A program made the translations under genes and the position numbers. 60,213 nt of DNA from Lentilactobacillus kefiri (GTDB lineage Bacteria > Bacillota > Bacilli > Lactobacillales > Lactobacillaceae): NCBI RefSeq assembly GCF_007989105.1, contig NZ_BJVK01000013.1, positions 1 through 60,213 of the forward strand, written 5' to 3'. Below the pieces are notes generated by a model. It was not told where the DNA came from. It made no database searches and saw only the letters and a program-made list of their open reading frames with translations. Shown in pieces: positions 27,499 through 42,523 of the stretch; the first letter of the stretch is position 1; every line of letters begins with the position of its first letter.

Positions 27499-27507
27499 TG
27501 CTTGTAC

Positions 27508-27533
27508 AACGGCTGGAATCTTTCCAAGCCGTT
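27508..27533 (+). terminator. Rho-independent terminator
   Basis: AACGGCT and AAGCCGTT arms with a GGAA/TTCC extension, then ATTTTTAT, end the P-type ATPase transcript. Confidence 0.85.
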
Positions 27534-27553
27534 ATTTTTATATTCGACGTTAG

Positions 27554-27585
27554 CTAGTGTCCACAACTAGATAACGTGGTATAAT
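27554..27585 (+). promoter_or_regulatory. Promoter region of DUF1836 gene with dyad
   Basis: A TATAAT box at 27580-27585 follows an inverted repeat CTAGT-N7-ACTAG (27554-27570) placed where a repressor could block it. The -35 box is weak. Confidence 0.45.
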
Positions 27586-27605
27586 AAACACGAAGGAGTG
27601 ATATC

Positions 27606-28133
27606 ATGTCATACAACGAAGAACAATATGAACAGTGGGAACAAAAGCTGAAATTGGTAGAACTGCCACTCTGGGCCGATTTGCCAAAATTTGAATTATA
27701 TATGGATCAACTTGTCGCACTGGTAAATGAAACCTTGGGGCCAATCGGAATCGACAAAGTCACTCCGGCAATGATCAACAATTACGTTAAAAACAAGGCA
27801 ATTATGGCGCCGGTTAAGAAAAAGTATCAGACCATGCAGGTTGCCGATGTCATCCTAATCAGTTTGTTGAAGCCGGCATTCTCCTTAGAGACTATTCGGC
27901 ACGGTATCGATCAGGTGACTGCCAATATTTACCCACAACAGGCATATGACACGTTCATTAAACGACTGCTATTTTCATTTAAGAACATGGACAGCCGCAA
28001 CAGCCGGGCACTGGAAGAAAAAAATCTCAATGATAAATTAATGCAGGTTGCAGTTAATGTCATTATTGACAGAATTCAATCTGAAAAGCTTTTATCGATT
28101 ATTCAGAAGCCATTGACGAAAGTAACCAAATAA
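27606..28133 (+). CDS. DUF1836-domain protein (putative MerR-like regulator)
   Basis: 175 residues, all helical. ITPAMINNY-like text (VTPAMINNYVKNKAIMAPVKKKY, written here in part as KVTPAMINNYVKNKAI) is the DUF1836 helix-turn-helix, about residues 58-80. The domain is widespread in Firmicutes, function unproven, and often compared with MerR DNA-binding domains. AGGAGTG precedes the ATG. It lies directly upstream of adhE with Rex-like and cre-like sequences after its stop codon. Confidence 0.8.
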   Translation: MSYNEEQYEQWEQKLKLVELPLWADLPKFELYMDQLVALVNETLGPIGIDKVTPAMINNYVKNKAIMAPVKKKYQTMQVADVILISLLKPAFSLETIRHGIDQVTANIYPQQAYDTFIKRLLFSFKNMDSRNSRALEEKNLNDKLMQVAVNVIIDRIQSEKLLSIIQKPLTKVTK

Positions 28134-28140
28134 TTAGAAG

Positions 28141-28158
28141 TCGTGAATATGTTCACAT
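28141..28158 (+). promoter_or_regulatory. Rex-like operator 1
   Basis: TCGTGAATATGTTCACAT matches the Rex consensus TTGTGAAWWWWTTCACAA at 15 of 18 positions, with a perfect GTGAA-N4-TTCAC core. Rex senses the NADH/NAD ratio. It lies about 230 bases before adhE, on the far side of a terminator. Confidence 0.45.
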
Positions 28159-28165
28159 ATAAATA

Positions 28166-28179
28166 ATGGAACCGCTTTC
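28166..28179 (+). promoter_or_regulatory. cre-like site upstream of adhE
   Basis: TGGAACCGCTTTCA fits TGWNANCGNTNWCA except at the third base. It sits between Rex-like site 1 and the terminator. Confidence 0.4.
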
Positions 28180-28183
28180 ATAG

Positions 28184-28212
28184 AAAAAGGACTTGGTTAA
28201 CAAGTCCTTTTT
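28184..28212 (+). terminator. Terminator of the DUF1836 gene
   Basis: AAAAAGGACTTG pairs with CAAGTCCTTTTT around a short loop, so adhE starts from its own promoter. Confidence 0.85.
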
Positions 28213-28259
28213 ATTTTGTTTGCTGTTATATCAGCTTGGAAGCACTTACAAAAAATAAA

Positions 28260-28277
28260 TTGTGATTTTTTGAACAA
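28260..28277 (+). promoter_or_regulatory. Rex-like operator 2
   Basis: TTGTGATTTTTTGAACAA matches the Rex consensus at 15 of 18 positions and ends 5 bases before the -35 box of adhE. A TTGTGAA half-site lies just past the -10 box (28316). Confidence 0.55.
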
Positions 28278-28282
28278 AAGTG

Positions 28283-28310
28283 TTTACATTTTTTCAATAC
28301 GTGATATTAT
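28283..28310 (+). promoter_or_regulatory. adhE promoter
   Basis: -35 TTTACA (28283-28288), 16-base spacer and -10 TATTAT (28305-28310), giving a leader of about 57 bases with GGAGG before the ATG. Confidence 0.7.
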
Positions 28311-28373
28311 AAGTCTTGTGAAAAAGATAACATATTTCAAACAACCTACAAACGATTCATTGGAGGAAAATCA

Positions 28374-30983
28374 ATGATTGATAATAAAGCAAAAGAAACA
28401 AAAGCAGCAAAGACTGATGTCGATACTGTCATTAACGGTTTAGTTTCAAAAGCACAAAAAGCTCTTGAAATTATGGATTCATTTGACCAAGAAAAAGTTG
28501 ACCACATTACTCACCAAATGGTAATGGCCGGCCAAGACAAACATATGGATCTTGCAATCATGGCTTATGAAGAAACTGGCCGTGGTGTTGCTGAAGATAA
28601 AGCTATCAAGAATATGTACGCTACTGAAGAAATTTGGCACAGTATTCGCGACCACAAGACTGTTGGTGTTATCAAAGATGATAAGGAACGCCAATTGATT
28701 ACGGTTGCTGAACCTCTGGGTGTCCTTGCTGGAATTACACCAGTTACCAACCCAACTTCAACAACATTGTTCAAGTCCATCATTTCAATGAAGACTCGAA
28801 ACCCAATTATCTTTAGTTTCCATCCACAAGCTTTGAAGTCATCAATTGCAGCTGCCAAAGTTGTTCGTGATGCTGCCATTGCTGCTGGTGCTCCTGAAGG
28901 ATGTATCCAGTGGATTGAAGAGCCAAGTATTGAAGCAACTGATAAGTTGATCAACAACCCAGGCGTTGCAAGTACACTTGCTACTGGTGGCCCAGGCATG
29001 GTTAAAGCAGCTTACTCAACTGGAAAGCCTGCTTTAGGTGTTGGACCTGGTAACGGCCCTGTTTATATCGAAAAGACTGCTAACATTCTTCGTGCCGTAA
29101 ATGATTTGGTTCTCTCAAAGACCTTTGATAATGGTATGATTTGTGCCACTGAAAACAGTGCAGTTATTGATACTGATATTTACGCTGAAGTTAAGAAACA
29201 ATTAGTTAAGAACGGTGTCTTCTTTGTAGAAAAGAAAGACCAAGCCAAGTTGGCTGAAGCAATGTTCAACCCTAAGACTTGTGCCGTTAAAGGCCCGATT
29301 GCCGGAAAATCAGCCAAGGTTATTGCTAAGTTGGCTGGAATCAAAGTTCCCGACAATACCAAAGTTTTAGCTGCTGAAATTAACGGCGTTGGTCCTAAAT
29401 ACCCATTATCAGCTGAAAAGTTGAGCCCAGTTATTTCAATTTACAAAGCTAAGAACCATGAAGAAGGATTTAAGCTCTGTGACGAATTACTTCACTTCGG
29501 TGGAATGGGACACACTGCCGGCATTCAAACTTTGGATGACGACTTGGCCCTCAAGTTCGGTGAACAGATGAAGGCAGCCCGTGTGCTTGTTAACACACCA
29601 GGTGGTTTCGGAGGTCTTGGTAATCTTTATAACGAAATGACACCATCATTAACATTAGGTACCGGTTCATGGGGAGCTAACTCAATTTCTCATAACGTTA
29701 CCGACTATGACCTTTTGAACATCAAAACTATCGCAAAGAGACGAAATAATATGCAATGGATTAAGTTACCTCGTGTTTACTTTGAAAAGACTTCAGTTCG
29801 TTACCTGATGGATATGCCTGGAATCAATAAGGTATTTATCGTAACCAGTCCAGAAATGGTTGAATTTGGCTACGTTGACAAGGTTCTTGATGAATTGAAA
29901 CGTCGTCCAAATGAAATCGAATATTCATTATTCTCAAGTGTTGAACCAGATCCAACAACTGACACCGTTGAAAAAGGTGTTCGTCAAATGAACGCATTTA
30001 AGCCTGACACAATCATTGCCCTTGGTGGTGGTTCACCATTGGATGCCGCTAAGAACATGTGGTTATTCTACGAAGACCCTAAGACCAGCTTCTTCGGTGC
30101 AAAGCAGAAGTTCTTGGATATCAGAAAGCGTGCTTATCGCTTCCAGAAGCCTAAGAAGGCTCAAATGATCGCTATCCCAACCACTTCAGGTACTGGTTCA
30201 GAAGTTACACCATTCGCTGTTATTACTGATTCAAAGACTCATGTTAAGTACCCATTGGCTGATTACGCATTGACACCAGATGTTGCCATCGTTGACCCAC
30301 AATTTGTTGAAACTGTACCAAAGGGTAACATTGCTGCTTCAGGTTTGGATACGTTATGCCATGGTATCGAATCATTCGTATCAACAATGGCATCAGATTA
30401 CACTCGTCCATTGTCACTTCAAGCTATCAAGTTGGTATTTGACAACTTGGCAGATTCATACAATGGAAACATGCACGCCAAGGAAGAAATGCATAACGCC
30501 GCAACTCTTGCCGGAATGGCATTTGCCAACGCATTCCTTGGAATTACCCACTCAGTTGCCCATAAACTTGGCGGTGAGTTTGGCTTGACCCATGGTATCG
30601 CAATTGCAATCACCATGCCTCATGTCATCCGTTACAATGCCAAATTACCAGAAAAGATCGCCGCATGGCCTAAGTACGAGTACTTCCGTGCCAACAAAGA
30701 CTACGCAGAAATTGCCCGTTACGTTGGTATCCAAGGCAAGACCGACGATGAATTAATCGAAGGATTGGTTCAAAGAATCATCAAGTTGGCCCACGAAGTA
30801 GGCGTAACCTTAAGCTTGAAGGCTTGGGGCGTAGACAAAGCCAAATTCGATGCAGCTCTTGATCGTCTGTCAGTATTGGCATACGAAGACCAATGCACAA
30901 CTGCCAACCCTAAGGAACCTTTGATTGCCGATCTGAAGCAAATTATGATTGACGATTATGAAGGAACGAATGTAGAAAAGTAG
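28374..30983 (+). CDS. adhE: Bifunctional acetaldehyde-CoA/alcohol dehydrogenase
   Basis: 869 residues, standard for AdhE. The N-terminal aldehyde dehydrogenase half (about 20-440) has the catalytic Cys in NGMICATENSAV; the C-terminal iron-dependent alcohol dehydrogenase half (about 460-860) has GGGSPLDAAK, DTLCHGIESF and HSVAHKLGGEFGLTHG with the metal-binding His residues. It reduces acetyl-CoA to ethanol with two NADH, the redox sink after phosphoketolase. Codon choice looks strongly biased, as in highly expressed genes. Rex-like and cre-like sites precede it. The stop codon TAG is immediately followed by a palindromic element with an internal terminator. Confidence 0.97.
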   Translation: MIDNKAKETKAAKTDVDTVINGLVSKAQKALEIMDSFDQEKVDHITHQMVMAGQDKHMDLAIMAYEETGRGVAEDKAIKNMYATEEIWHSIRDHKTVGVIKDDKERQLITVAEPLGVLAGITPVTNPTSTTLFKSIISMKTRNPIIFSFHPQALKSSIAAAKVVRDAAIAAGAPEGCIQWIEEPSIEATDKLINNPGVASTLATGGPGMVKAAYSTGKPALGVGPGNGPVYIEKTANILRAVNDLVLSKTFDNGMICATENSAVIDTDIYAEVKKQLVKNGVFFVEKKDQAKLAEAMFNPKTCAVKGPIAGKSAKVIAKLAGIKVPDNTKVLAAEINGVGPKYPLSAEKLSPVISIYKAKNHEEGFKLCDELLHFGGMGHTAGIQTLDDDLALKFGEQMKAARVLVNTPGGFGGLGNLYNEMTPSLTLGTGSWGANSISHNVTDYDLLNIKTIAKRRNNMQWIKLPRVYFEKTSVRYLMDMPGINKVFIVTSPEMVEFGYVDKVLDELKRRPNEIEYSLFSSVEPDPTTDTVEKGVRQMNAFKPDTIIALGGGSPLDAAKNMWLFYEDPKTSFFGAKQKFLDIRKRAYRFQKPKKAQMIAIPTTSGTGSEVTPFAVITDSKTHVKYPLADYALTPDVAIVDPQFVETVPKGNIAASGLDTLCHGIESFVSTMASDYTRPLSLQAIKLVFDNLADSYNGNMHAKEEMHNAATLAGMAFANAFLGITHSVAHKLGGEFGLTHGIAIAITMPHVIRYNAKLPEKIAAWPKYEYFRANKDYAEIARYVGIQGKTDDELIEGLVQRIIKLAHEVGVTLSLKAWGVDKAKFDAALDRLSVLAYEDQCTTANPKEPLIADLKQIMIDDYEGTNVEK

Positions 30984-31147
30984 TGAGCGACGAGACCTGG
31001 GTGGTCCCGGAGCATAACTAGAAAAAGTCAGTGATGAGTGATTTACTCATCACTGGCTTTTTTTAGTTATGTAGTAGGGACCAGGGTCGTCGCCCACAGG
31101 ACTAGGCAGGTGTTCCACCGGCCGTCGGAGCTGTCCTCAAAGGCCGA
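30984..31147 (+). repeat. Palindromic stop-codon-associated element, copy B (behind adhE)
   Basis: Starts TGAGCGACGAG directly after the stop codon; outer arm ACCTGGGTGGTCCC pairs with GGGACCAGGGTCGTCGC near 31078. Inside are the nested arms CATAACTA/TAGTTATG and a terminator hairpin. The tail ACTAGGCAGG, CCGGCCGTCGGAG and CTGTCCTCAAA is the reverse complement of the 10470-10510 segment. Bases 31148-31231 hold nothing recognisable. Confidence 0.85.
31022..31064 (+). terminator. adhE terminator inside element B
   Basis: GTCAGTGATGAGT pairs with ACTCATCACTGGC around GATTT and is followed by seven T. Confidence 0.9.
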
Positions 31148-31231
31148 CTAAACCAGAAAAGAGCCAAAAATATCCAATCTAATGTAGCAAATTTCTGCAA
31201 TATCTTAGCAGAAAATCCAATCATCAACTGA

Positions 31232-31270
31232 CAAAAGCCGTTAACCACAAACAATGTGGCTAACGGCTTT
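31232..31270 (-). terminator. Terminator of the AraC-family gene
   Basis: AAAAGCCGTTA and CCACA pair with TGTGG and TAACGGCTTTT. Confidence 0.85.
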
Positions 31271-31291
31271 TCTACACAAACGATTTATCAA

Positions 31292-32191
31292 CTACTTATA
31301 TTGAATATGATATTTCTCCTGCATCTCCCGAGGAATCGGGATGCTGGGATCAACAAATGGATTGTTTTGGTGATGATAGGCAAAGTGCCTGCGATAATTG
31401 GATGGTGTGATCCCAGTGTGCTTTTTAAAAACCCGGATAAAGTTCTTCTCGTTTCTAAAGTAGCTGTTCTCACTAATCTCGTAAATTGGCAGGTTGGTTT
31501 TCACCAACAAGACCTTTGCGGCTTGAATCTTTAATCCCAACAAGTGTTGGAGTGGTGTGATATTTAAATCGTGCTTAAATTGTTGCGTAAGATAGGCATT
31601 TGAGACCTCAAAGTGCTGCGCAACATCTTTAATCGACAAATCAGTACTTATATTAGCCCGAATCCATTCTATCGACTGACTTACCAATGCGGATAAGTGG
31701 GTGTTCTTTGCCCTGCGTGAACATTCAATGTTCAGTCGTGCAAGGATAGTTGTTGTTAAGAGGTTTAATGGCAGCTCGTTGGTTTTTCTGTCCATTTCCA
31801 TATTCATGAGTTCGCTCAGCAAAATCAGAATGTCATTGATATCTCTAACGTGAAACTTGCTTGAAAAAATCAGTTGGTCTTTTGATTCGTCGTCAATTGA
31901 ATCAACAACTTTGTAATCACAATAGAAGTGAAGCCAGTAAAAATTAATCTGCTGGGTCATCTTCCCATTGCCAGTCACTTTGGCATAGGGTGGTACTAAT
32001 ATAACGTCACCGGGTTTAAGAATAAACGGCCGGTCGTTGACGAGAATGGATAGCGTTCCTTTTTCCGCTAATATCAATTCAAAATCCGCTTGATGCTGAT
32101 TGACGGGATGTTCCCATTGGCCGTCAAACGAAAATTCACCAATGAAGAATAAAAAGGCTGGTTTGGAAATATCCAATGCAAGATAACTCAT
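31292..32191 (-). CDS. AraC-family transcriptional regulator
   Basis: 299 residues. The N-terminal cupin sensor (about 20-130) includes LVNDRPFILKPGDVILVPP; the C-terminal double helix-turn-helix (about 195-295) has IKDVAQHFEVSNAYLTQQF and NFIRVFKKHTGITPSNYRR, the AraC signature. It is divergent from the MFS gene and next to a GH127 glycosidase, so it probably senses an arabinose-containing sugar and activates these genes (inference). The ATG 32191 has AAGGGGCGAAG upstream. Confidence 0.92.
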   Translation of the reverse strand: MSYLALDISKPAFLFFIGEFSFDGQWEHPVNQHQADFELILAEKGTLSILVNDRPFILKPGDVILVPPYAKVTGNGKMTQQINFYWLHFYCDYKVVDSIDDESKDQLIFSSKFHVRDINDILILLSELMNMEMDRKTNELPLNLLTTTILARLNIECSRRAKNTHLSALVSQSIEWIRANISTDLSIKDVAQHFEVSNAYLTQQFKHDLNITPLQHLLGLKIQAAKVLLVKTNLPIYEISENSYFRNEKNFIRVFKKHTGITPSNYRRHFAYHHQNNPFVDPSIPIPREMQEKYHIQYK

Positions 32192-32234
32192 GATTCTTCG
32201 CCCCTTAAATAATGCGACTAATTATTAAAAAATG

Positions 32235-32270
32235 TGTATTTTCAAACTTAGATTAAACGATTAAAATACA
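32235..32270. promoter_or_regulatory. Inverted repeat in the araC-MFS divergent region
   Basis: TGTATTTT and AAAATACA are separated by 20 bases, midway between the divergent genes. A second dyad TGCAGTC-N8-GACTGCA lies at 32301-32322, within the probable MFS leader. Confidence 0.4.
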
Positions 32271-32365
32271 TAGGTCAAGCTATGCGCTCTTTCGATATAT
32301 TGCAGTCAACGAGGCGACTGCATAAATGGGGTGCGGATGAATTTAATCAAGGATGGAAAACGAAT

Positions 32366-33553
32366 ATGAAGACCAAATTGCAATCAATTGTTTTAGTTTT
32401 AATTGGTTTTGTTCTGGGGTGCAATGAATTTATCATTGTCGGAATTTTATCAGATGTCAGCCGTGGCTTTAATGTGTCAACATCGCAAGCCGGATTTTTA
32501 GTGACCTTGTTTGCGTTGGTATACGCATTTTCCACGCCAATTGTGAATACGATTATCAGTCAATTTAACCGGTTCAAGGTACTCGTCATATTGATGGGAA
32601 TTTTTATTGCCGGCAATACCTACACCGCCCTGGCACCATCGTTTAATCAGTTGATTGCCTCCAGGGTAATCACGGCATTAACTGCAGGGCCAATTATTTC
32701 ACTGGCAATGTCTTTTGCAACGGTCATTGTCTCAATTCAAAAGCGGCCAATGCTGGTATCTTGGATCTTTTCCGGATTTAGTATTGCCTCAGTTGTCGGG
32801 GTTCCGGTTGGAACATTGATCGCCAATTCAACGAACTGGCGATATTCTTTCCTATTAATCACGATTATTGGACTTGCTTGCCTGGCGGCCGTTGTCTGGC
32901 TCTTGCCTAAGCACATCAAGCAAACAAAAAGTTCACTCATGGGTCAGTTGGCGATTGTGCGTGACAGACGGGTCATCATTGGCTCTGCGCTGGTCATGTG
33001 CAATTTGGCTGGGACCTACGTTGTTTATACGTACTTACAACCTATTTTAACGGAGATGATGAAATTTTCCGTTGCTTCTCTTGGCTTGCTGCTGGCCGTT
33101 TATGGGGTTGCGTCAATATTCAGCAATCAATTTTCAGGCTTTCTTGCCAGTCACGGAAGTCTGACTCGGATGCCATGGGTCTATATTGTCCAGTCAGTGG
33201 TGTTTTTGATGATGCCGTTTTTTATTCATTCTCAAACCCTGGGATTTCCACTCCTATTGATCATGGGAATGGCGATGTATCTGTTAAATGCGCCAATTCA
33301 GATTCATTTTATGCAGATTGCAGAGTCCGATTATCCCCAGTCGATGGTCTTGGCGTCCTCGTTTAATTCGATTTTCTCAAATTTGGGGATTTCGGTCGGG
33401 TCAGCTGTTGGATCAGCAATCCTTTCAACTGGTGGATTGTCTGCTTTGGGAATCGGTGCCGCAGTGTTTGCGGTTGCCTCATTTGGACTGGTAACTTACT
33501 TGGTCAAAATAACCCATCATTTTATTAAAACTGTTAAAAATAAAGTTGCCTAA
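32366..33553 (+). CDS. MFS transporter (AraJ-like)
   Basis: 395 residues, about 12 hydrophobic segments. Begins with LIGFVLGCNEFIIVGILSDV, the typical AraJ/DHA1 first segment (the GxxEFxxxG pattern), and SASRVITALTAGP-like text after segment 4 (seen as IASRVITALTAGP). It is placed between AraC and GH127 genes, so export or uptake of a pentose-related product is plausible. ATG 32366 has AAGGATGG upstream; the longer frame from 32282 is not supported. Confidence 0.87.
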   Translation: MKTKLQSIVLVLIGFVLGCNEFIIVGILSDVSRGFNVSTSQAGFLVTLFALVYAFSTPIVNTIISQFNRFKVLVILMGIFIAGNTYTALAPSFNQLIASRVITALTAGPIISLAMSFATVIVSIQKRPMLVSWIFSGFSIASVVGVPVGTLIANSTNWRYSFLLITIIGLACLAAVVWLLPKHIKQTKSSLMGQLAIVRDRRVIIGSALVMCNLAGTYVVYTYLQPILTEMMKFSVASLGLLLAVYGVASIFSNQFSGFLASHGSLTRMPWVYIVQSVVFLMMPFFIHSQTLGFPLLLIMGMAMYLLNAPIQIHFMQIAESDYPQSMVLASSFNSIFSNLGISVGSAVGSAILSTGGLSALGIGAAVFAVASFGLVTYLVKITHHFIKTVKNKVA

Positions 33554-33645
33554 GCTCACAAATCTAGAGCCTAGGCGTTGATGCCATGGGGTTATCCAGA
33601 ATTTGAGGGCCCATTGTGAATGACTAAAAAACTGTCACTTTTTTA

Positions 33646-33660
33646 TTGAAAACGTTCCCC
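33646..33660 (+). promoter_or_regulatory. cre-like site before the GH127 gene
   Basis: TTGAAAACGTTCCCC fits the alternative cre consensus WTGNAANCGNWNNCW except at the last base, and ends just before the -35 box. Confidence 0.45.
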
Positions 33661-33662
33661 AA

Positions 33663-33691
33663 TTGCCATCTGAATTCGCTTACAATATAAG
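33663..33691 (+). promoter_or_regulatory. Promoter of the GH127 gene
   Basis: -35 TTGCCA (33663-33668), 17-base spacer, -10 TATAAG (33686-33691). Confidence 0.55.
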
Positions 33692-33735
33692 CTATATTAT
33701 GGATATTGCTTTTTGGATATGAAAGGACAATTCAA

Positions 33736-35724
33736 ATGAAAAAGCCAACTGCAACAACTCAATTATCAATTAATAAAGTAAAAATTACGTCTGACTTTTG
33801 GACGAGATACCGCGATTTGGTCGCTAACGTGGTGGTCCCATATCAATACGAAACAATCAGCGACAAAAATGATACGACAATTGGTGATGATGCATTTACT
33901 GATAAGGAAGCTTACCAAGACGGCCTGCAAAGCCATGCCATTGAAAACTTGAAGATTGCTGCAGGAATCAGCAAAGGTAAACATGTCGGCATGAACTTCC
34001 AAGATACCGACGTCTATAAATGGCTGGAAGCAGCAGCTTACACACTTCAGTATCATCCAGACAAGGACTTACAGGCTGAAACCGATGCGGTTGTTGATTT
34101 GATCGCCAAGGCCCAAGAGCCGGATGGGTATCTTTCAACAATTTTCCAAATCAAGTTTCCTGAAAGAAAGTTTAAACGACTTCAACAATCTCACGAATTA
34201 TATTCAATGGGTCATTATATTGAAGCCGGGGTTGCCTATTTTGAAGCAACTGGCAATCAAAAGGCCCTTGATATCGCTGAAAAGATGGCGGCTTGTTTAG
34301 AGGACAACTTTGGCCTTGAAGACAACAAGATCCACGGTTATGGTGGTCATCCTGAAATCGAATTGGCATTAATGCGACTTTACGAAGTAACTGGAAAGAA
34401 AGAATATTTGAATCTGACAAATTACTTCATTCGTCAACGTGGTCAGGATCCGGATTTCTTCGATAAGCAAAATGAAGCCGATGGTTGGGACAATGCCTTT
34501 TGGCCAGATCTCAATACGATTGGTAATGAATATTACTACGCAGATAAGCCTGTAACGGAACAAACCAATGCTCACGGTCACGCTGTCCGCTGTGTTTATT
34601 TGGCAACCGGCTTGGCTCACCTTGCCCGGGTAACTGGCGACCAAGACTTAAAAGACGCGGCTCAACGAATTTGGAATGACATTGTCAAAAAACAAATGTA
34701 TATTACTGGTAACGTCGGCCAAACATCCACTGGTGAGGCCTTCACCTTTGACTATGACCTGCCAACCGATACCGACTACGGCGAAACTTGTGCTTCAGTT
34801 GCGATGACTTTCTTTGCTCGTCAGATGCTTGCCGGTGATTTTAAGGGTGAGTATGGGGATGTAATCGAAAAAGAAATCTATAATGGCGCATTAAGTGGAA
34901 TGGCTTTAGATGGAACCCATTATTTCTATGTAAATCCGTTGGAAGTTAATCCAAGCGAATCTGCTAAGAATCCTGATAAGAAACATGTTCTGCCACGCCG
35001 TCAAGCTTGGTTTGGAACAGCTTGCTGCCCATCAAACATTACCCGATTGATTGCTTCTATGGATCGTTATCTTTACGAAGTTAAGGACAATACTATCTTT
35101 GCCCATCAGTATATTGCTAATTCAACAACCTTTAGTGATGGAATCAAAGTGGATCAAGAAAGTAATTTACCATGGGATGGTACCGCGACATTTGAGATTA
35201 CCAATCCGGAAAATGTTCACTTTAATTTTGCAGTTCGAATTCCCAACTGGAGCAGAGATTCATTTAAGATAACTGTTAACAATCAGGTGATTGACGCGGA
35301 CGGAAAAGATGGCATTGTCATTGTTCCGATCACTGACGAAAAAACATCTATTGAAGTTGTCCTGGATATGAAGACAAATTTGATTTATGCCAATTCTAAA
35401 GTACGGGCAAATGCGGATGATGTTGCTGTTCAACGCGGCCCACTCGTATACTGTGCAGAACAGGTTGATAACCCCGGCAATCTTTGGAACTACCAACTCG
35501 ACACGGTTCCCCACTTTGACTTTGCATATCAAGATGACTTATTGAATGGTGTCGGTGTCCTGACAACCAACGATGCAACCAAAGTTGAAACAGAAGACGA
35601 CTCTGACAGCCTTTACCAGTTCAATAAGGCTCCTAGAAGAGCTTCAACCAAGTTAACCCTGATTCCTTATTACTCATGGGCTAACCGGGACGAAGGCCAG
35701 ATGAGTGTTTGGCTTCACAAATAA
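33736..35724 (+). CDS. GH127 beta-L-arabinofuranosidase
   Basis: 662 residues, close to the 658 of Bifidobacterium HypBA1. The zinc/cysteine active site is visible: Glu350 and Cys352 in YGETCASVAM, and Cys430-Cys431 in GTACCPSNITRL. In HypBA1 the matching Glu and three Cys bind zinc and one Cys is the nucleophile. The enzyme would release L-arabinofuranose from plant glycoprotein sugars. No signal peptide, so it acts in the cytoplasm on imported oligosaccharides. ATG 33736 follows AAAGGA; the ten extra upstream codons lack a site. Carbon control through a cre-like site is likely. Confidence 0.93.
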   Translation: MKKPTATTQLSINKVKITSDFWTRYRDLVANVVVPYQYETISDKNDTTIGDDAFTDKEAYQDGLQSHAIENLKIAAGISKGKHVGMNFQDTDVYKWLEAAAYTLQYHPDKDLQAETDAVVDLIAKAQEPDGYLSTIFQIKFPERKFKRLQQSHELYSMGHYIEAGVAYFEATGNQKALDIAEKMAACLEDNFGLEDNKIHGYGGHPEIELALMRLYEVTGKKEYLNLTNYFIRQRGQDPDFFDKQNEADGWDNAFWPDLNTIGNEYYYADKPVTEQTNAHGHAVRCVYLATGLAHLARVTGDQDLKDAAQRIWNDIVKKQMYITGNVGQTSTGEAFTFDYDLPTDTDYGETCASVAMTFFARQMLAGDFKGEYGDVIEKEIYNGALSGMALDGTHYFYVNPLEVNPSESAKNPDKKHVLPRRQAWFGTACCPSNITRLIASMDRYLYEVKDNTIFAHQYIANSTTFSDGIKVDQESNLPWDGTATFEITNPENVHFNFAVRIPNWSRDSFKITVNNQVIDADGKDGIVIVPITDEKTSIEVVLDMKTNLIYANSKVRANADDVAVQRGPLVYCAEQVDNPGNLWNYQLDTVPHFDFAYQDDLLNGVGVLTTNDATKVETEDDSDSLYQFNKAPRRASTKLTLIPYYSWANRDEGQMSVWLHK

Positions 35725-35748
35725 CTAAAACTTTAATCTCGTTTCTTT

Positions 35749-35787
35749 AACGGCGTGATTCCGAGTTCTCCTTGGAATCACGCCGTT
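35749..35787 (+). terminator. Rho-independent terminator
   Basis: AACGGCGTGATTCC pairs perfectly with GGAATCACGCCGTT, then ATTTTTGT. Confidence 0.92.
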
Positions 35788-35865
35788 ATTTTTGTGTTGA
35801 GATATTTTAGTCAAATTTCCAAAAGCCCATAAACTATGGGTGATGATATGCTATACTTTTCAGTG

Positions 35866-36003
35866 TAAAGAAGCATAATAAAACGGAAAAAGGTGAAAAT
35901 CCTTTACAGCCCCTTCGCTACTGTAAGATTGACGAAGCTGTCAGAACTCACTGGGTTACCCTGGAAAGAGGACAGTTGTAGGACGAGATCAAGTCAGGAT
36001 ACG
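35866..36003 (+). ncRNA. Cobalamin riboswitch aptamer
   Basis: The segment contains the conserved B12-riboswitch elements in order: GGTGAAAATCC (35892), ACAGCCCCTTCGCTACTGT (35906), GAAGCTGTCAG (35934), an ACTGG loop, GGAAAGAGGACAG and the 3' signature AAGTCAGGATAC (35991-36002). A TATACT box at 35852 is suitably placed. Such elements switch genes off when adenosylcobalamin or a relative binds. The gene pair downstream is therefore predicted to rise when B12 is scarce. Confidence 0.93.
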
Positions 36004-36123
36004 TTTGTTATGCCGATTGCAAAGCTTCTTAGGGTCGGCTTTGTCAATTAATAGCGTATCTATCGGATATTTCGTATGCTCAAATTCAATGTCTGAATAT
36101 AGGTTGTTAGTGATTAAAGAAAC

Positions 36124-36156
36124 GGCCCTGGCTAGCAATACTAGCTGGGCTTTTTT
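36124..36156 (+). terminator. Riboswitch-controlled terminator
   Basis: GCCCTGGCTAG pairs with CTAGCTGGGC around CAATA, followed by TTTTTT, 65 bases before the first gene's start codon. It is the expected expression platform of the upstream cobalamin aptamer. Bases 36004-36123 hold probable antiterminator sequence and no supported gene. Confidence 0.8.
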
Positions 36157-36220
36157 GTTGTGTTCAATTGTTTATTTTGTTGAGGGTTTCATCACTATTT
36201 ATTTGGAGGAGAGCAGACAC

Positions 36221-38533
36221 ATGAAGAAAAAACAGCTTGTTTATTGGATATCACTGGTAGTAGGGATGTTCCTGCTATTTGTTGGCGGTGGTAATTTTGT
36301 CAAAGCAGACACCGCTGCTGATGTAGATTCAGCCATTACGACCGGAGTTAAGCTGACTTCCCAAAAGACGTCACTTGATGCCTGGGATGCCGCAATTTTG
36401 GCAACCAGCGATAATGGCATTACTGATGCTGAGACGCAAAATGCTTACAATACCATCATTACCACAAACGGATTTATCAGCGGAAAGGATCAAGACCTTG
36501 CTGGTGTCTCAAACGTTGCCGGCATGATTGGGCTTCGCGCACTTGGCAAAGATCCAGCAAATGTGGAAAAGAAGGATCTGGCCGCTCAAGTTATTAACGA
36601 TCCCGCACTTAAGAGCGATAAAGTTGATTTGTACACCATTATCAATGACTTGGAAGGTTTAAGCACCGGCAATTATGGTAAGGCAAGTGAAACTGCCCGT
36701 GCCACGTTGACGAAGCGCCTGCTGGCTGCCCAAGATTCCAAGACAGGTGTTTGGAAGACCAGCTGGGGTGATGTTGATCCTACTGGCCGGGCTATTCTGG
36801 CACTCTCGATGAACATGGGTCAACCAGGAGTTCCCGCTGCAATTCAAAAAGCGGTGACTGAAGTTGAAAATCATTATTATTTGAAAGATGGTGGCTTTGG
36901 TACCAGTGATGCCGCCAACAAGGAAGACCAGTATAACAATATCACCATGACTAATGGTCTAGCTGCAGCTGGTGTTGATGTGTACACCTCGTTAAACGGG
37001 CAGTCCGGCTATACAGCACCTGTTCAGCGCTTACTGGATCAAAAGGACGTTTCTTCCGACAGCAACTCCATGCTGCTGCAACAAGCTACTTACACCTTAG
37101 AACAGGCTAAATTTACCAAAGATGGCGGTCAGGGTTGGATCTTCTCATTTGCCCAAAATCCAACTTTCAGAGCCCGTGAACTGGCAAAGTTAAATACGGC
37201 AGCAGCCGCTCAAAGACAGGCCATTAATAATGACTCAAAGGCGTCAACAACCGACAAGACAACGGCAATCAATTCAATCAACCAAACGCTTGAAACGTAC
37301 ATTACCAAGATCAACGGCGACACGACCAGTGAAGCGGCAATTGCCGACCGGGCAGTTGGAGTTGCCTCAATTAACAATATTAAAATCGTTGATACAAATG
37401 ACAACAGCAGCTCAACCAGTGGCACCGTTATTAATAACAATTACACCACCATTATCAATCAGCCAAGTTCATCAAGTTCGTCGAGTTCGTCAGCAGCTTC
37501 AAGCAGTTCGGCTGAACCAGTTGTTAAGCCAACCACTCCGACAAAGCACAAGAGTACCAAAGGTTCATATGTATACGCATTAACAACCGTTAAATTATAT
37601 CGAAACACTCATTTTACCAAGCATCATTTAGCCAAGATTTATCATAAGCAAAGCAGAACTAAACGCCCAATGTTCCTGGTAATCAGACAAACAACCAACA
37701 CCCAGGGAAGACCCGTTTATAAGGTTAGAAATGTTAACAGCGGCAAGACCGGTTATACGCTAGCTTCTCGTAAGCATTTTGCAAATGCTTATTATTCTGC
37801 TAAAGTTACCCGAATCAAAGTTATCAGTTCCAAAGGGATTAATGAGTATAGCAATCGCTATCTCAGTAATAAAAAGCACCATGTTAAGAAGAATCGGTCA
37901 CTGGCCGTTCGAAAAGTCGTTGGTTACGGCCGCACAAGCCGTTTATTGTTAACTAACGGTCGTTATGTTTCAGGCAACAAAAAACTGGTGATGGCAACCA
38001 AAATTGCCAAGACCAGTCATCAAACAACTGACAGTTCAACGACAGTGGCGCCAGCTCCAACCACACCAAGCTCATCATCAACGTCGACGTCGACATCAAC
38101 AACCGTTCCAACAACGCCAACAGTCCCAACAACACCGACAAATGGATCATCGACAAGCAATTCTACCAACAATTCCACAAATGGTTCTGGAACAAATGAC
38201 AATTCCGGTTCAAACACTGATACCACCAACGAAACGGTTACCGTTAGTGTTAATGCGAATGGATCCGTGCTTGCCAGCGGGAGTGTCACCCTTACCAAAG
38301 GTGCGACTGCTCTGGATGCATTGAAAGCATTGGCAGCCAAGAACAATCTGGCAGTCACAATCAGTGGCTCAGGAATTTCCGCCTATGTTAAAGGTATCAA
38401 TGGCTATAACGCTGGCCCTGCCGGAACCATGACGGGTTGGCTGTATTCCGTTAACGGCAGTGAGCCCAACAGCTCAATGGGCGTATATGTCGTGAAGGAT
38501 GGCGACAAGATTTCGATGAATTATAACAAGTAG
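36221..38533 (+). CDS. Secreted transcobalamin-like protein: alpha/alpha toroid, wall-type repeats, DUF4430
   Basis: 770 residues. Signal peptide 1-29 (cleavage after VKA). Residues about 30-395 form helical repeats of the terpenoid cyclase/prenyltransferase toroid type (AAILATSDNGITDAET, GRAILALSMN, DGGFGTSD). A Ser-rich linker follows (about 414-430), then two Tyr/Lys/His-rich SH3-like repeats (about 443-593) like the wall-binding domains of lactobacillus surface proteins, a Ser/Thr/Asn linker, and DUF4430 (about 670-770, with LDALKALAAKN and TGWLYSVNG). Toroid plus DUF4430 is the domain plan of transcobalamin and intrinsic factor. The B12 riboswitch upstream supports extracellular cobalamin binding. 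ATG 36221 follows TTGGAGGAG; a longer frame runs through riboswitch RNA and is rejected. Confidence 0.88.
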   Translation: MKKKQLVYWISLVVGMFLLFVGGGNFVKADTAADVDSAITTGVKLTSQKTSLDAWDAAILATSDNGITDAETQNAYNTIITTNGFISGKDQDLAGVSNVAGMIGLRALGKDPANVEKKDLAAQVINDPALKSDKVDLYTIINDLEGLSTGNYGKASETARATLTKRLLAAQDSKTGVWKTSWGDVDPTGRAILALSMNMGQPGVPAAIQKAVTEVENHYYLKDGGFGTSDAANKEDQYNNITMTNGLAAAGVDVYTSLNGQSGYTAPVQRLLDQKDVSSDSNSMLLQQATYTLEQAKFTKDGGQGWIFSFAQNPTFRARELAKLNTAAAAQRQAINNDSKASTTDKTTAINSINQTLETYITKINGDTTSEAAIADRAVGVASINNIKIVDTNDNSSSTSGTVINNNYTTIINQPSSSSSSSSSAASSSSAEPVVKPTTPTKHKSTKGSYVYALTTVKLYRNTHFTKHHLAKIYHKQSRTKRPMFLVIRQTTNTQGRPVYKVRNVNSGKTGYTLASRKHFANAYYSAKVTRIKVISSKGINEYSNRYLSNKKHHVKKNRSLAVRKVVGYGRTSRLLLTNGRYVSGNKKLVMATKIAKTSHQTTDSSTTVAPAPTTPSSSSTSTSTSTTVPTTPTVPTTPTNGSSTSNSTNNSTNGSGTNDNSGSNTDTTNETVTVSVNANGSVLASGSVTLTKGATALDALKALAAKNNLAVTISGSGISAYVKGINGYNAGPAGTMTGWLYSVNGSEPNSSMGVYVVKDGDKISMNYNK

Positions 38534-38561
38534 CATTTCGATTCTCGTCAAGAAAGGATAT

Positions 38562-39611
38562 ATGATGAACAAATTATTAAAACACATACTGTTATCGACT
38601 GCAGCAATTCTGGCAACTGTCACATTTACAACAAGCGCGGCTGACGCTTCCGTCCATAAAGCGGCCACTTCTACGATCCACCGGCGTACCGCACTGACGT
38701 ATCGTTATGCCAAAAAGATGTTGAAAGAAAATAAGACGGGCTTATCCGGCAAAACCAGTGCGATTTTTAGCCGTAAATTATATCCGGACACCGGAGCAGC
38801 ATCCGGCTATTCCGACTTTCTACTTGGATTAAGAGGCAACCACTACAAATTTACAAGTCACGAAAAGAATTTGTTACGCAAAAATCTGGTTGTTAAAAGC
38901 AGCACGCCTGCCGCCAGCTTGGCCAATGCGGTCATGGCCGTTCAGGCAATGGGGATGAATGCCACTAATTTCAAACTTTATCATCACAAGAAGGGGACAA
39001 ATCTTGTTTCCCGGCTTTATCGGACAAGCATCTCAAAGCAGACGGCCAGTTCCCAAGCCGAGACCTTAATTGCTGTTTCCATGAGCAGTCGATTTAAGCG
39101 ACCAAGCGGTGCCAAGTTTAGCAAGGCCAGCTTGAGTGCCCGGTTGGTTAAATCGCAATTGAAAAATAACGGTTGGACTTACAATAATGCTCAAGGTGCC
39201 AAAGATGCTGATGTCACCAGTATGGTGCTGACGGGGCTTTATCGGGGCAAATCCAACACTTCAACAGTTGAATCAAGTATTCAAAAGGGCCAAAAGTTCC
39301 TTTACAGACTTGCGCAAGGGAACGGTGCCTTTGGTTATACCTATGCTGGTAAGACTACGCCCAACGCTAATTCAACAGCTGAAGCGATCATTGCGTTATC
39401 CAACAATTCTGCCACCAAAAAATACGTCAACACGACCGCTATGCGGACAGGTCAGAAAGCCACTCCGCTATATGCGATGCTGAGATATGTTAATAATTCC
39501 GGATCCATCAAAAAAGCCACCAGCCAACTTTACGGGGTTGGCCAGGTTAACTTAGCTGTTGCGGCTTATAAAGCTGCTTTGAAGAATCGATCCGTGTATG
39601 CAATCCAGTAA
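38562..39611 (+). CDS. Secreted alpha/alpha-toroid protein, partner of the B12-regulated locus
   Basis: 349 residues. Signal peptide about 1-29 (cleavage after ADA). The rest is helical repeats similar in style to the toroid half of the preceding protein: SSQAETLIAVSMSSRF, ADVTSMVLTGLYRG, NSTAEAIIALSNN. It lacks a DUF4430, a linker and any anchor. It starts 28 bases after the upstream stop with AGAAAGGA, and no terminator intervenes, so it shares the cobalamin riboswitch. It may capture or hand over corrinoids, or complete a two-part binding site; this is inference. Confidence 0.8.
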   Translation: MMNKLLKHILLSTAAILATVTFTTSAADASVHKAATSTIHRRTALTYRYAKKMLKENKTGLSGKTSAIFSRKLYPDTGAASGYSDFLLGLRGNHYKFTSHEKNLLRKNLVVKSSTPAASLANAVMAVQAMGMNATNFKLYHHKKGTNLVSRLYRTSISKQTASSQAETLIAVSMSSRFKRPSGAKFSKASLSARLVKSQLKNNGWTYNNAQGAKDADVTSMVLTGLYRGKSNTSTVESSIQKGQKFLYRLAQGNGAFGYTYAGKTTPNANSTAEAIIALSNNSATKKYVNTTAMRTGQKATPLYAMLRYVNNSGSIKKATSQLYGVGQVNLAVAAYKAALKNRSVYAIQ

Positions 39612-39642
39612 ACGAAATATTGAGATTTGATATAGCATTACT

Positions 39643-39682
39643 AAAGCCCCGGTTAAACGTTTTTCCGTTTAGCTGGGGCTTT
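39643..39682 (+). terminator. Terminator of the B12-regulated pair
   Basis: AAAGCCCC, TAAACG and complements form a long stem ending in GGGGCTTTG. Confidence 0.85.
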
Positions 39683-39798
39683 GATTCTGATAGTCTTTAT
39701 CTACGGCCGATTAAAGATTTTTCAAATGAGAACAGATATACTGTTAATAGTTGGATTCATTTCCTGACAATATTTGTAGTAAGTTAAAGGAGTTCCAC

Positions 39799-40440
39799 AT
39801 GATAAATAGATTGAGACAAATTCGCGGGTTCGTTCAAAAAGAACTCGGCTATGAAACGACCGGCCATGACTACACCCACATTGAGCGGGTGGTCAGCTTG
39901 GCCAAATTAATTTTAAAGGGTGAAGATGCTGATGAAGGCTTAGTCATTATTGCGGCATATCTTCATGACGTCAGTGATGACAAAGTCACCACCAATCCGC
40001 AAGCTAAGCGAAAAGCCATTGCCGATGAATTAATCGGGGTTGGGTATGATCAGGACTTTGTTAAAAAAGTGTTTGAGATTATTGATAATATGTCATACAG
40101 CGCCAATCTAAAAACCCATCACAAATTGTCGCTTGAAGGCCAAATCGTTCAGGATGCCGACCGATTGGATGCCATTGGCGCCATCGGAATTGCCCGCACA
40201 TTTTACTTTGGAGGCCACTTTGGCGAAATTATGTATAATCCACGGATTATGCCGCGGACGGGGATGGATAAGGCTGAGTATCGCAAACACGGTACGGTTA
40301 TCAACCATTTTTACGAAAAGCTGTTCAAATTAAAGGATCAGATGAATACGCCTACTGCCAAGAAAATTGCCGAGCATCGTCAACAGGTCATGCGTGATTT
40401 TGTGGCTGAATTTGTTGACGAATGGAATGGCACTAAATAA
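39799..40440 (+). CDS. HD-domain phosphohydrolase
   Basis: 213 residues. Metal-binding residues of the HD superfamily are visible: GHDYTHIERV near residue 21, AAYLHDVSDD near 53, and QDADRLDAIGAIGIART near 117. This subgroup (YpgQ/YedJ-like) hydrolyses nucleotide phosphates or pyrophosphates. ATG 39799 follows AAAGGAG; the longer frame is not supported. Its last 8 bases overlap the end of the convergent membrane-protease gene. Confidence 0.9.
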   Translation: MINRLRQIRGFVQKELGYETTGHDYTHIERVVSLAKLILKGEDADEGLVIIAAYLHDVSDDKVTTNPQAKRKAIADELIGVGYDQDFVKKVFEIIDNMSYSANLKTHHKLSLEGQIVQDADRLDAIGAIGIARTFYFGGHFGEIMYNPRIMPRTGMDKAEYRKHGTVINHFYEKLFKLKDQMNTPTAKKIAEHRQQVMRDFVAEFVDEWNGTK

Positions 40441-41167
40441 AGCGAAATATCAGGTTCATGACCAATGAAATCAGCAAATTAAATAATGAGATAACCACGA
40501 TGATAACAGTGAAGTGATACAGCAGGCTGAACAGACTTTCCTGCCATGGTGTGACTGAGATAACCAGCGTTAGCAGGACTAAAAAGAGCACTGCCTGCCA
40601 GAAGCCTTGTTTGGAATTTTCAAAATCAGCCTGACTGAGGTCAAAGCCGCCGATGCAAATATTGGCAGCAACCACCAGAAAAATCAGCATTTTAGGCCAG
40701 CTGAACGTTGGCATTATGAAGGTCATTTGGCTAAATGACTGGTGGGTGGACATGATCAATGATTGGTAAACTTCAGGAATGGTGAATTTGGCCAATAATA
40801 AAGTTGTCAGGCAGCAACCAAAAATTGGGGCGACACCTATGAAGAGGTTGCCCATATTTTGGTAAAGGTTGCGGTTATTCCAGGTGTGGTGAACGTACCC
40901 CAGGGTGTCGTTGTCAGCGGTGGGGATGCGCACTAATCTGAATTGATCAACATGGTGGCCAAACACAAGTGCCATCAGCAGATGACTGGCTTCATGAATC
41001 ATAATTCCCAGAAAGCCGAAGCCAATTTGACCGCCAATTCCAAAACGGTTGGCAATCTGCTGCTTGGTGCGATGGTTGATTGATGAGAGTAAAAAGATAA
41101 AAAGAAATGGCACTCCGATCGTGAGTCCGAGTACCAATCCAATGTTTGTCAAAATATTTGTAAGCAT
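40433..41167 (-). CDS. M50-like membrane metallopeptidase
   Basis: 244 residues with about five or six membrane segments. The sequence GIMIHEASHLLMALVFG near residue 55 holds the HExxH zinc motif inside a hydrophobic segment, typical of site-2 proteases; a second acidic metal ligand, GGFDLSQADFE near 170, is plausible. It could process membrane-bound regulators. The start follows the YbaK-like stop by 4 bases, so the two form an operon. The 3' ends of this gene and the HD gene overlap tail to tail. Confidence 0.75.
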   Translation of the reverse strand: MLTNILTNIGLVLGLTIGVPFLFIFLLSSINHRTKQQIANRFGIGGQIGFGFLGIMIHEASHLLMALVFGHHVDQFRLVRIPTADNDTLGYVHHTWNNRNLYQNMGNLFIGVAPIFGCCLTTLLLAKFTIPEVYQSLIMSTHQSFSQMTFIMPTFSWPKMLIFLVVAANICIGGFDLSQADFENSKQGFWQAVLFLVLLTLVISVTPWQESLFSLLYHFTVIIVVISLFNLLISLVMNLIFRFI

Positions 41168-41171
41168 TAAG

Positions 41172-41672
41172 TCATTCCTTTATGTCGGCAAATTTTCCGC
41201 CAATGAGATCGACCATTTGTTGGGCGTCAACTTTGACTGAGCGGCCAATTTGACCAGATGAAACGATGATTTCACCCATTTCTTTGGCTTCCTGGTCAAC
41301 GTAAATTGGGTAGTGGAACTTTTCCCAAATCCCAATCGGCGTGTTGGCACCGTGTTGGTAGCCAGTGGTTTTCAGTAGATCCTTCAATGGCACCAGGTTG
41401 ACCTTTTTGTTGCCGGAAACTTTGGCGAGCTTTTTTTCGTCCAAGTGTTCATCAACCGGAACAACACCGACAACCGGACCGGTCTTCTTACCAGAGAACA
41501 CCAAAGTCTTGAAAATCTGATGTTCGGGCGTATCTACATGGTCGACACTGATTTGTTCAACGTCGCCTTCCTTGTGGGTTGGAAATTCCATTTGGACAAA
41601 CGGAATTTTGTGTTTATCTAAAATTTGTTCAACTAAAGTTTTATGAACCTTATTCTTCTTTTTCTTTGACAT
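41172..41672 (-). CDS. YbaK/EbsC-family aminoacyl-tRNA deacylase
   Basis: 166 residues with the YbaK/ProX fold: VFKTLVF-like text (IFKTLVFSGKKTGPVVGVVP), then DEKKLAKVSG and GYQHGANTPIGI. The Lys in IFKTLVF is the catalytic residue position in the family, which removes Cys from Cys-tRNA(Pro). The Lys-rich N-terminus is typical of tRNA binding. First gene of an operon with the membrane protease. ATG 41672 has CAGGTGTTATG spacing, a weak AGGTG site. Confidence 0.88.
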   Translation of the reverse strand: MSKKKKNKVHKTLVEQILDKHKIPFVQMEFPTHKEGDVEQISVDHVDTPEHQIFKTLVFSGKKTGPVVGVVPVDEHLDEKKLAKVSGNKKVNLVPLKDLLKTTGYQHGANTPIGIWEKFHYPIYVDQEAKEMGEIIVSSGQIGRSVKVDAQQMVDLIGGKFADIKE

Positions 41673-41791
41673 TTCATAACACCTCAGGAATATTTTATCA
41701 CAATCGGGTGGGTAATCCGTCTGAACAAAAGAAGATAATCTGTTATACTTTATTTCAGCAGATCAATTTAACGATTTAATAAGGAGCACAA

Positions 41792-42523
41792 ATGGCTGAT
41801 TTAGTATATCGCAATATCATGAAGGACTTGAAGAATCGTATTCAGGCAAACGAGTTTGCATCAAAGAAGCTGCCTGATGAACGAAGCCTCAGCGAGTCTT
41901 ATGGTGTTAGCCGCAGTTCAATTAAACGCGCTTTGAATGTTTTGGCAAACCGGGGGATCATTTTCAAAAAACGTGGTTCGGGAACGTTTATTAATCCGCT
42001 TTACCAAAAGAATCAAACAATTTTTCAATACGAAGGGTCCAACCTGGGGGTTACCGACAGCTTTAAGAGTGATGGCCAAACACCCCAAATTAAGTTGCTG
42101 GACTTCAAAGTTGTCCCCGCAAGTAAGGAGCTTCAAACCGAACTATTCCTAAACCCGGGTGAATTTGTGTACGAAATTAAAAGACTTCGTTCTTTTGACG
42201 ACAAGCCGTTCATGATCGAATTAGGCTATATCCCAATCCGGGTTGCACCGGAACTCAACAGTGAACGGGTGGAAGGCTCAATCTTCAACTACTTTGAGGA
42301 TGCAACCGGAACTTCCGTTACCAAATCGTTTATGACAATCACCGCCGATCCGTCAACCAAAGAGGATCAGGAACTGCTTGGCTTGAAGCCGGTGGAACCG
42401 GTCGGCGTGATGGAAGGTATCTTCTTCCTGGATGACGGAACCCCATTCGAAGTCTCAAATATGCGGATTCATTATAAATATTTGAACTACAACACGTTTG
42501 TTAACTTGGACGAAGATAAATAG
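41792..42523 (+). CDS. GntR-family regulator with UTRA sensor domain
   Basis: 243 residues. N-terminal winged helix (about 1-70) with LPDERSLSESYGVSRSSIKR and ANRGIIFKKRGSGTFI; the C-terminal UTRA domain (about 90-235) has YEIKRLRSFDDKPFMIELGYI. HutC/TreR-type regulators bind sugar phosphates or other metabolites. No catabolic operon is next to it, so the target is unknown. The ATG follows AAGGAGCAC. Confidence 0.92.
   Translation: MADLVYRNIMKDLKNRIQANEFASKKLPDERSLSESYGVSRSSIKRALNVLANRGIIFKKRGSGTFINPLYQKNQTIFQYEGSNLGVTDSFKSDGQTPQIKLLDFKVVPASKELQTELFLNPGEFVYEIKRLRSFDDKPFMIELGYIPIRVAPELNSERVEGSIFNYFEDATGTSVTKSFMTITADPSTKEDQELLGLKPVEPVGVMEGIFFLDDGTPFEVSNMRIHYKYLNYNTFVNLDEDK

Follow-up and report, generated by a model that had tools for sequence, protein, structure and literature searches.

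Bacterial proteins built like the vitamin B12 (cobalamin) carriers of animals were predicted in 2007, and the kind has remained mostly a predicted one. Burroughs et al. (PMC1796856; this and the other PMC-numbered sources are cited from excerpts of their text) reported secreted fusions of an alpha/alpha toroid with a transcobalamin-like SLBB domain, in operons that hold CbiO and CbiQ-like genes, and noted a second, paralogous protein at the cell surface. They proposed that such proteins scavenge B12 in Gram-positive bacteria and that they were transferred to animals; the hosts usually lack key B12 synthesis enzymes. Here we analyse a locus of Lentilactobacillus kefiri (RefSeq assembly GCF_007989105.1) in which a cobalamin riboswitch is followed by two genes for secreted proteins, called gene 1 and gene 2 below. 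It lies in the window, i.e. the whole stretch of DNA that was analysed (60,213 nucleotides), which is the entire contig NZ_BJVK01000013.1 (G000:C13) of a 2.49 Mb draft genome that is 99.98% complete. Like the clade of 2007, the locus is predicted to encode a secreted toroid joined to a DUF4430 domain and a second paralogous extracellular protein. As to operons of CbiO/CbiQ type, the picture is mixed: an operon with the ATPase and T component of an energy-coupling factor (ECF) transporter is absent at the window locus, present on another contig of the genome (C8) and in relatives, and found as a divergent neighbour on a third contig (C50). The excerpted 2007 text does not contain the word riboswitch, nor does it describe ECF operons in which toroid and DUF4430 are encoded by two separate, paired genes, a form with DUF5776, or a plasmid copy. 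Our searches of the open-licence literature turned up no earlier account of such a locus under riboswitch control in the Lactobacillaceae. As far as these searches show, the one-to-one riboswitch control within the genus is new, and so are the pairing of separate toroid and DUF4430 genes in the ECF operon, the variant that carries DUF5776, and the comparison of structures.

The animal carriers transcobalamin, haptocorrin and intrinsic factor have the plan that is predicted for the gene 1 protein, an N-terminal alpha/alpha toroid and a C-terminal DUF4430/beta-grasp domain. In the gene 1 protein, unlike in them, the two domains are set apart by long linkers of low complexity and by a DUF5776 region; ECF operons encode each half as a protein of its own, and membrane passage would use an ECF transporter, whereas the animal carriers use endocytosis. 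ECF-CbrT of Lactobacillus delbrueckii (6FNP) is a proven transporter of both cobalamin and cobinamide (PMC5997447). Both S-components of CbrT-like type in the present genome have 6fnp_A as their best PDB sequence (E 1.4e-9 and 4.3e-10) and are predicted from this likeness to carry out similar transport. The excerpted CbrT paper names no extracellular capture protein, and riboswitch, operon, lipoprotein and CblT do not appear in that main text. In L. rhamnosus, the DUF4430 protein LGG_02295 lies next to rtpR (PMC9963975); 'Additional lipoprotein component of putative cobalamin ECF transporter' is an annotation label found in that same source. The likeness consists in a small DUF4430 protein near a B12-dependent ribonucleotide reductase and in an extra component predicted for B12 ECF uptake. 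The excerpted label contrasts with our own set: among the 31 DUF4430-only proteins inspected, none has a lipobox pattern in the first 45 residues, and just two have any Cys there; their N-termini are hydrophobic and may be an anchor or a signal peptide, and most of these proteins adjoin a toroid gene. BtuG of Bacteroides, a lipoprotein that works with BtuB and is described as Bacteroidetes-only (PMC6143338), is a surface B12 catcher ahead of a transporter, as is proposed here. Finally, plasmid-borne B12 genes with CbrT were reported for L. plantarum MF1298 (PMC6722938).

We consider it probable, at roughly 85%, that the locus is an outer, riboswitch-controlled and B12-repressed layer of surface capture which feeds CbrT-like ECF uptake. 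A first-pass annotation, made from the sequence alone, had read it as an extracellular capture system for a transporter encoded elsewhere, and this idea is now supported, since its computable predictions held: the likeness of folds, the presence of CbrT-like modules and the recurrence of the locus in the genus. The last of these was followed in a sample of 24 Lentilactobacillus genomes, a close gene 1 homologue being defined by E below 1e-80. Twelve genomes gave 15 riboswitch matches. The riboswitches of at least 61 bits number 12, and each of them directly precedes a close gene 1 homologue; conversely, none of the 12 close homologues lacks a riboswitch. The remaining three matches (39.4, 29.3 and 26.2 bits) are not upstream of such a gene, and four distant gene 1 matches, in genomes G264 and G355, have no riboswitch nearby. 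The search of relatives that was suggested with the first reading thus finds the gene 1 locus again within the genus, behind the same riboswitch.

The riboswitch of the window exceeds the RF00174 gathering score of 31.5 bits over the full Rfam model (Table 1). It begins 38 bases before the start first noted for the locus, and the claim of a complete riboswitch with a terminator platform is otherwise borne out. In the lowest-energy fold of 36026-36160 (z -3.57), positions 36031-36037 pair with 36123-36129 and overlap the 5´ arm of the terminator, as an antiterminator would; the two structures may then act as a switch. Twelve homologous leaders of the genus, that of the window included, align well downstream of the aptamer, and 11 of them, among them the window's, keep a terminator with a U-run and a stable hairpin of -13.7 to -20.5 kcal/mol. 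RNAalifold returned 43 pairs for the 12 leaders, 8 of them with at least one compensatory change, with a small covariation term (-0.66). In one leader of L. parakefiri (contig 30, L043:1420-1575), the 3´ arm of the terminator is lost and the hairpin amounts to -2.9 kcal/mol; this copy may be constitutive, or else reflect an assembly error. Both genes behind the riboswitch were judged by eye to encode signal sequences, in agreement with the two secreted proteins expected there. Also by eye, each gene is preceded by a purine-rich ribosome binding site, and a stem with a T-run lies 3´ of gene 2 at about 39643-39682.

Table 1. Features of the riboswitch locus (positions in the window)
Feature	Position	Strand	Details
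Cobalamin riboswitch aptamer RF00174, complete	35828-36024	+	71.4 bits, E 1.2e-15, model 1-189 of 189
Intrinsic terminator, expression platform	36127-36156	+	9-pair stem 36127-36149, then U-run
Gene 1, 770 aa, secreted	36221-38533	+	ATG, GGAGG upstream; signal sequence by eye
Gene 1, predicted N-terminal alpha/alpha toroid, residues about 31-305	36311-37135	+	helices, pLDDT mostly 70-94; matches transcobalamin chains
Gene 1, predicted helical stalk, DUF1542-like, residues about 316-385	37166-37375	+	pLDDT 45-75
Gene 1, DUF5776 region, residues about 450-595	37568-38005	+	Pfam; pLDDT low, 24-67
Gene 1, DUF4430, predicted transcobalamin beta-domain fold, residues about 670-770	38228-38530	+	Pfam; 5no0, 5np4; family profile finds 4kki
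Gene 2, 349 aa, secreted; predicted alpha/alpha toroid without further domains	38562-39611	+	structure model

For the gene 1 protein, Pfam finds DUF4430 at residues 694-769 (E 6.8e-14), DUF5776 at residues 524-590 (E 2.8e-12) and, weakly, DUF1542 at residues 322-389 (E 6.8e-6). It finds no toroid family; the toroid is visible in the structure prediction only. In the AlphaFold2 model, made from 11 homologues, residues about 31-300, which are helical, and 670-770 mostly have a predicted local distance difference test score (pLDDT) of 70-94. When this model was compared with the PDB by Foldseek, the beta domain of human transcobalamin came first (5no0, E 4.7e-4, TM-score TMt 0.73; 5np4, E 1.1e-3), and the top 14 rows comprise 11 of transcobalamin, two of a bacterial structure of DUF4430 size (3u7z) and one terpene cyclase. 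A profile of 25 DUF4430 cores, run against 177,635 PDB sequences, returned human haptocorrin 4kki in first place (E 0.0075) with the whole beta domain aligned, the next match being unrelated (E 0.25). Four columns, Tyr41, Ile45, Gly58 and Trp59 in the numbering of the alignment, are invariant in these cores; haptocorrin matches Tyr, Ile and Trp, not Gly. A profile of whole DUF4430 proteins found only low-complexity or unrelated PDB chains, and single-sequence PDB searches with the gene 1 and gene 2 proteins found nothing. The proposed plan of a toroid with a C-terminal DUF4430 is thus upheld by the predicted fold, with transcobalamin first by E-value, and by the profile match to haptocorrin. 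Two Ser/Thr-rich linkers (49% and 59% S+T) correspond to the Ser-rich linkers described earlier. Neither protein of the locus contains an LPxTG-type motif or any Cys.

The gene 2 protein, which had been described as a lone toroid, has no Pfam match and no DUF4430. Its model (36 homologues) is confident and all-alpha (pLDDT 88.7, predicted template modelling score, pTM, 0.87) and matches alpha/alpha toroids, as that description requires. Human transcobalamin (4zrp_B, E 3e-4) occupies row 11 of its Foldseek list, and row 23 is intrinsic factor-cubilin (E 1e-3), so that the comparison with transcobalamin gives the best neighbour by E-value for gene 1 and a lower-ranking match for gene 2. Profiles of lone toroids and of gene 1-type toroids are homologous (hhalign probability 99.1, E 4.7e-19). 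Against the PDB, the former finds terpene cyclases (best E 8.1e-4) and the latter nothing meaningful. DXDD is the catalytic motif of class II terpene cyclases; in the lone toroids D-x-D is invariant (36 of 36), the next residue being T in 34 and V in two. A terpene-cyclase function for gene 2 was considered and put aside in view of the absent DXDD and the signal sequence seen by eye. The nearest named relative of gene 2 is from L. sunkii (91%). The lone toroid of L. kefiri plasmid pDH5 (NZ_CP029972.1 34378-35424) is annotated 'fucose-binding lectin II', a label without support in the present results. Lone toroids are usually encoded in an ECF operon that also has a DUF4430 gene of its own; gene 2 is therefore more probably one half, the alpha half, of a transcobalamin split in two than simply another catcher.

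Among ten neighbour proteins of the locus (25120-42523), one of them without any family, we found no ECF or other ABC transporter family, as the first-pass annotation had stated. The transporter it had placed elsewhere is represented by ECF modules on C50 and C8, with the two S-components closest to CbrT; the genome holds four DUF4430 matches in total. There are two cobalamin riboswitch matches in the genome, one at the window locus and one on C50. The latter heads a paralogous locus with three genes. Their products are a gene 1 homologue of 781 aa (50% identity), a toroid of 348 aa (70%) and a protein of 249 aa that has DUF4430 only; an ECF module (EcfT, double ATPase, S-component) is encoded divergently from this locus, with a partial ISLre2 transposase in between. 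An 8,736-base stretch of C50 (L003:500-9235) is 100% identical to pDH5. The locus also resembles plasmids of L. kefiranofaciens from kefir (98.5% identical, 94% covered) and of Levilactobacillus brevis from human faeces (98.2% identical, 85% covered), and its ECF genes are about 99% identical across six genomes of three genera. These near-identical ECF genes and the plasmid copies in several species indicate that the system moves horizontally. A short toroid piece, possibly a remnant, follows the S-component gene both on C50, where it reaches the contig end (L003:9276-9455), and on pDH5 (NZ_CP029972.1 42349-42558, open frame of about 70 aa). The third locus, on C8, has the order EcfT-EcfAA-S-toroid-DUF4430, and no cobalamin riboswitch was found in the 14 kb scanned there.

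Linkage of toroids to ECF genes was followed in 57 loci, which were chosen for having these genes and are a subset of all matches, some of them nearly identical. A gene run was defined as labelled same-strand genes less than 700 bases apart. By this measure, 39 runs join a toroid to EcfT-EcfAA-S: 26 have the order T-A-S-toroid-DUF4430, two are minor variants of it, and 11 have other orders, mostly with a gene 1-type toroid. Eleven further runs contain gene 1, either by itself or together with gene 2 and DUF4430; in the rest, the toroid has no ECF genes with it or the run is broken or partial. On an L. kefiranofaciens plasmid, such an operon has a PduV/EutP gene as neighbour. Such linkage bears on the idea that corrinoids are bound at the surface mainly for storage, or to deny them to competitors in kefir and other mixed communities, and not to feed an ECF transporter. 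Ten of the 11 gene 1 runs have no ECF genes in the fetched stretch, and competition for B12 by surface proteins is known, as BtuG can take the vitamin from intrinsic factor (PMC6143338). The 39 runs that place a toroid with an ECF module, and the C50 paralogue, which adjoins one, speak against storage or denial, and we regard it as very unlikely. In a scan of public sequences with two peptide patterns, 53 named loci were found in Lentilactobacillus, Levilactobacillus, Secundilactobacillus and entries named Lactobacillus.

The host genome itself encodes a B12-dependent ribonucleotide reductase (RTPR, 843.9 bits) adjoined by a cobalamin adenosyltransferase gene (PF01923, 8.1e-51); searches of it for diol dehydratase, QueG and CbiC, the last being one marker of one B12 synthesis route, gave nothing. 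The host seems to need B12 from outside. Across a family sample of 397 genomes, a lone toroid match occurs in 43 and a gene 1-type toroid match in 25 (weak matches counted; that of G267 is probably false), RTPR passes the cut-off in 100 and diol dehydratase is found in 46. RTPR and/or diol dehydratase accompany the lone toroid in 40 of 43 genomes, compared with 72 of 354 others (Fisher p 1.8e-21; the genomes are related and p overstates their independence), and the three exceptions have weak or partial toroid matches. For the gene 1-type toroid the figures are 20 of 25 and 92 of 372 (p 3.8e-8, with independence again inflated by kinship). QueG is also B12-dependent; it is present in four of the five gene 1-type exceptions and absent from the fifth (G267, the weak match), in a search limited to these and the own genome, with no family-wide control. 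The B12-binding family PF02310 was tried as an explanation of the same five genomes and discarded, being absent from all six genomes tried, our own included.

Another proposal is that the main ligand is cobinamide, another cobamide or an unrelated cofactor and that the riboswitch is a proxy signal. A reviewer of Burroughs et al. stressed possible other ligands for the clade (PMC1796856), and beside the ECF-toroid operon of one locus (L045) lie CobS and a cobC-like phosphatase gene, which would suit cobinamide salvage. We hold this proposal to be highly unlikely, as the S-components match CbrT, the excerpted account of which covers cobalamin as well as cobinamide, and the genome uses a B12-dependent ribonucleotide reductase. 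Near the same cobS and cobC-like genes and ECF-toroid operon, a second small ECF S-component-like gene of 156 aa was seen (L045:2216-2686); this gene possibly encodes a protein of CblT type, such as the excerpted source names for L. plantarum MF1298.

Several observations weigh against surface capture of B12 as the function of the locus. Firstly, the structural likeness is limited. As a whole, the model of the gene 1 protein has low confidence (pLDDT 62.3, pTM 0.44), and it is poor in the linkers and the DUF5776 stretch, so that the relative placing of toroid and DUF4430 is not given by it. Foldseek E-values are modest, just one row of gene 1 reaching 0.001 or below, and squalene-hopene cyclases (TMt 0.53-0.54) score above full-length transcobalamin chains (0.40-0.48). 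With gene 2, rows 1-10 are all terpene cyclases; if toroids are ranked by TM-score, their fit to squalene-hopene cyclases equals or exceeds that to transcobalamin. Sequence profiles of both toroid types do not find transcobalamin, and neither does a profile of whole gene 1 run against the PDB, which returned low-complexity or unrelated chains. The animal family has disulfides in the toroid, rat transcobalamin having four disulfides and bovine transcobalamin three (PMC11107200), and these are impossible in the Cys-free proteins described here. For want of disulfides we do not class the latter as members of the animal family but only as relatives that probably work alike.

The ten cyclase neighbours of gene 2 could also mean that it encodes a toroid enzyme, terpene-cyclase-like or glycosidase-like, or that the two proteins are adhesins, B12 regulation being incidental in either case. 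Surface adhesins typically have DUF5776 and linkers rich in Ser/Thr, and the lectin label of the pDH5 toroid points the same way. Since the DXDD acid motif is not kept, a signal sequence is visible by eye and the genes are linked to ECF genes and B12 enzymes, we consider this explanation, too, very unlikely.

Secondly, B12 control is not general. None of 13 scanned EcfT-EcfAA-S-toroid loci (L039, L044, L045, L048, L050, L051, L053, L054, L055, L072, L080, L092, L093) has a cobalamin riboswitch above the gathering score. Outside the genus, Rfam scanning of 12 gene 1-type toroid loci (L052, L056, L064-L071, L075 and L076, some of which share one genome) found one in two, L056 and L068, where three and at least one other genes, respectively, stand between riboswitch and toroid. 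Because the riboswitch is rare outside the genus and absent from the ECF operons scanned, we take B12 control to be a trait of this genus's gene 1 loci, not of the whole family. Thirdly, 72 of the 112 genomes with RTPR or diol dehydratase have no toroid, and the toroid is thus not needed for B12 use in general.

Two side observations belong to these scans. At L068:7118-9913, a 931-aa protein with two toroid-like regions and MucBP is encoded, with the cobalamin riboswitch upstream and DUF4430 and ECF genes downstream. In the window, an Rfam match to Ref68 (Lacto-3 RNA, 78.3 bits) lies at 54263-54385.

A possible mode of action of the locus as a surface capture layer is as follows. When intracellular B12 is low, the riboswitch would let transcription past the terminator and the products of genes 1 and 2 would be made. 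The gene 1 protein would act as a one-chain bacterial transcobalamin, with DUF4430 binding the corrinoid and the toroid closing on the bound molecule; the linkers rich in Ser/Thr, together with DUF5776, would keep the protein in or on the wall. The free toroid of gene 2 might pair around B12 with the DUF4430 of gene 1, or with that of the separate ECF-encoded DUF4430 proteins, which have a hydrophobic N-terminus. An inner layer, made up of the toroid and DUF4430 of the ECF operon, would deliver to CbrT-like S-components. CbrT-like ECF transporters, whose genes lie elsewhere in the genome, would take over the vitamin; after adenosylation it would serve the B12-dependent ribonucleotide reductase. 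In transcobalamin, cobalamin binds the beta domain first and the alpha domain then closes (PMC11107200); when the two domains of the human protein are made separately, they assemble only with cobalamin (PMC5599065). By analogy, a version split into toroid and DUF4430 is expected to be workable.

Carried further, and here we are tentative and rather doubtful, the riboswitch would, under B12 starvation, raise the outer layer only, i.e. the wall-held one-chain protein and the free toroid. A B12-induced heterodimer of the free toroid and a membrane-held DUF4430 would deliver to the CbrT-like S-component, and the carrier of animals would be related to bacterial pairs of this sort, with the two parts fused. 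If this is true, ECF transporters would have an extracellular, ligand-induced delivery complex; to our knowledge, they are not generally thought to have one. Extracellular B12 capture by Gram-positive bacteria has been little studied, while animal carriers of the same plan are clinically central. As a near-identical system resides on plasmids of several species, the finding bears on competition for B12 in kefir and gut communities.

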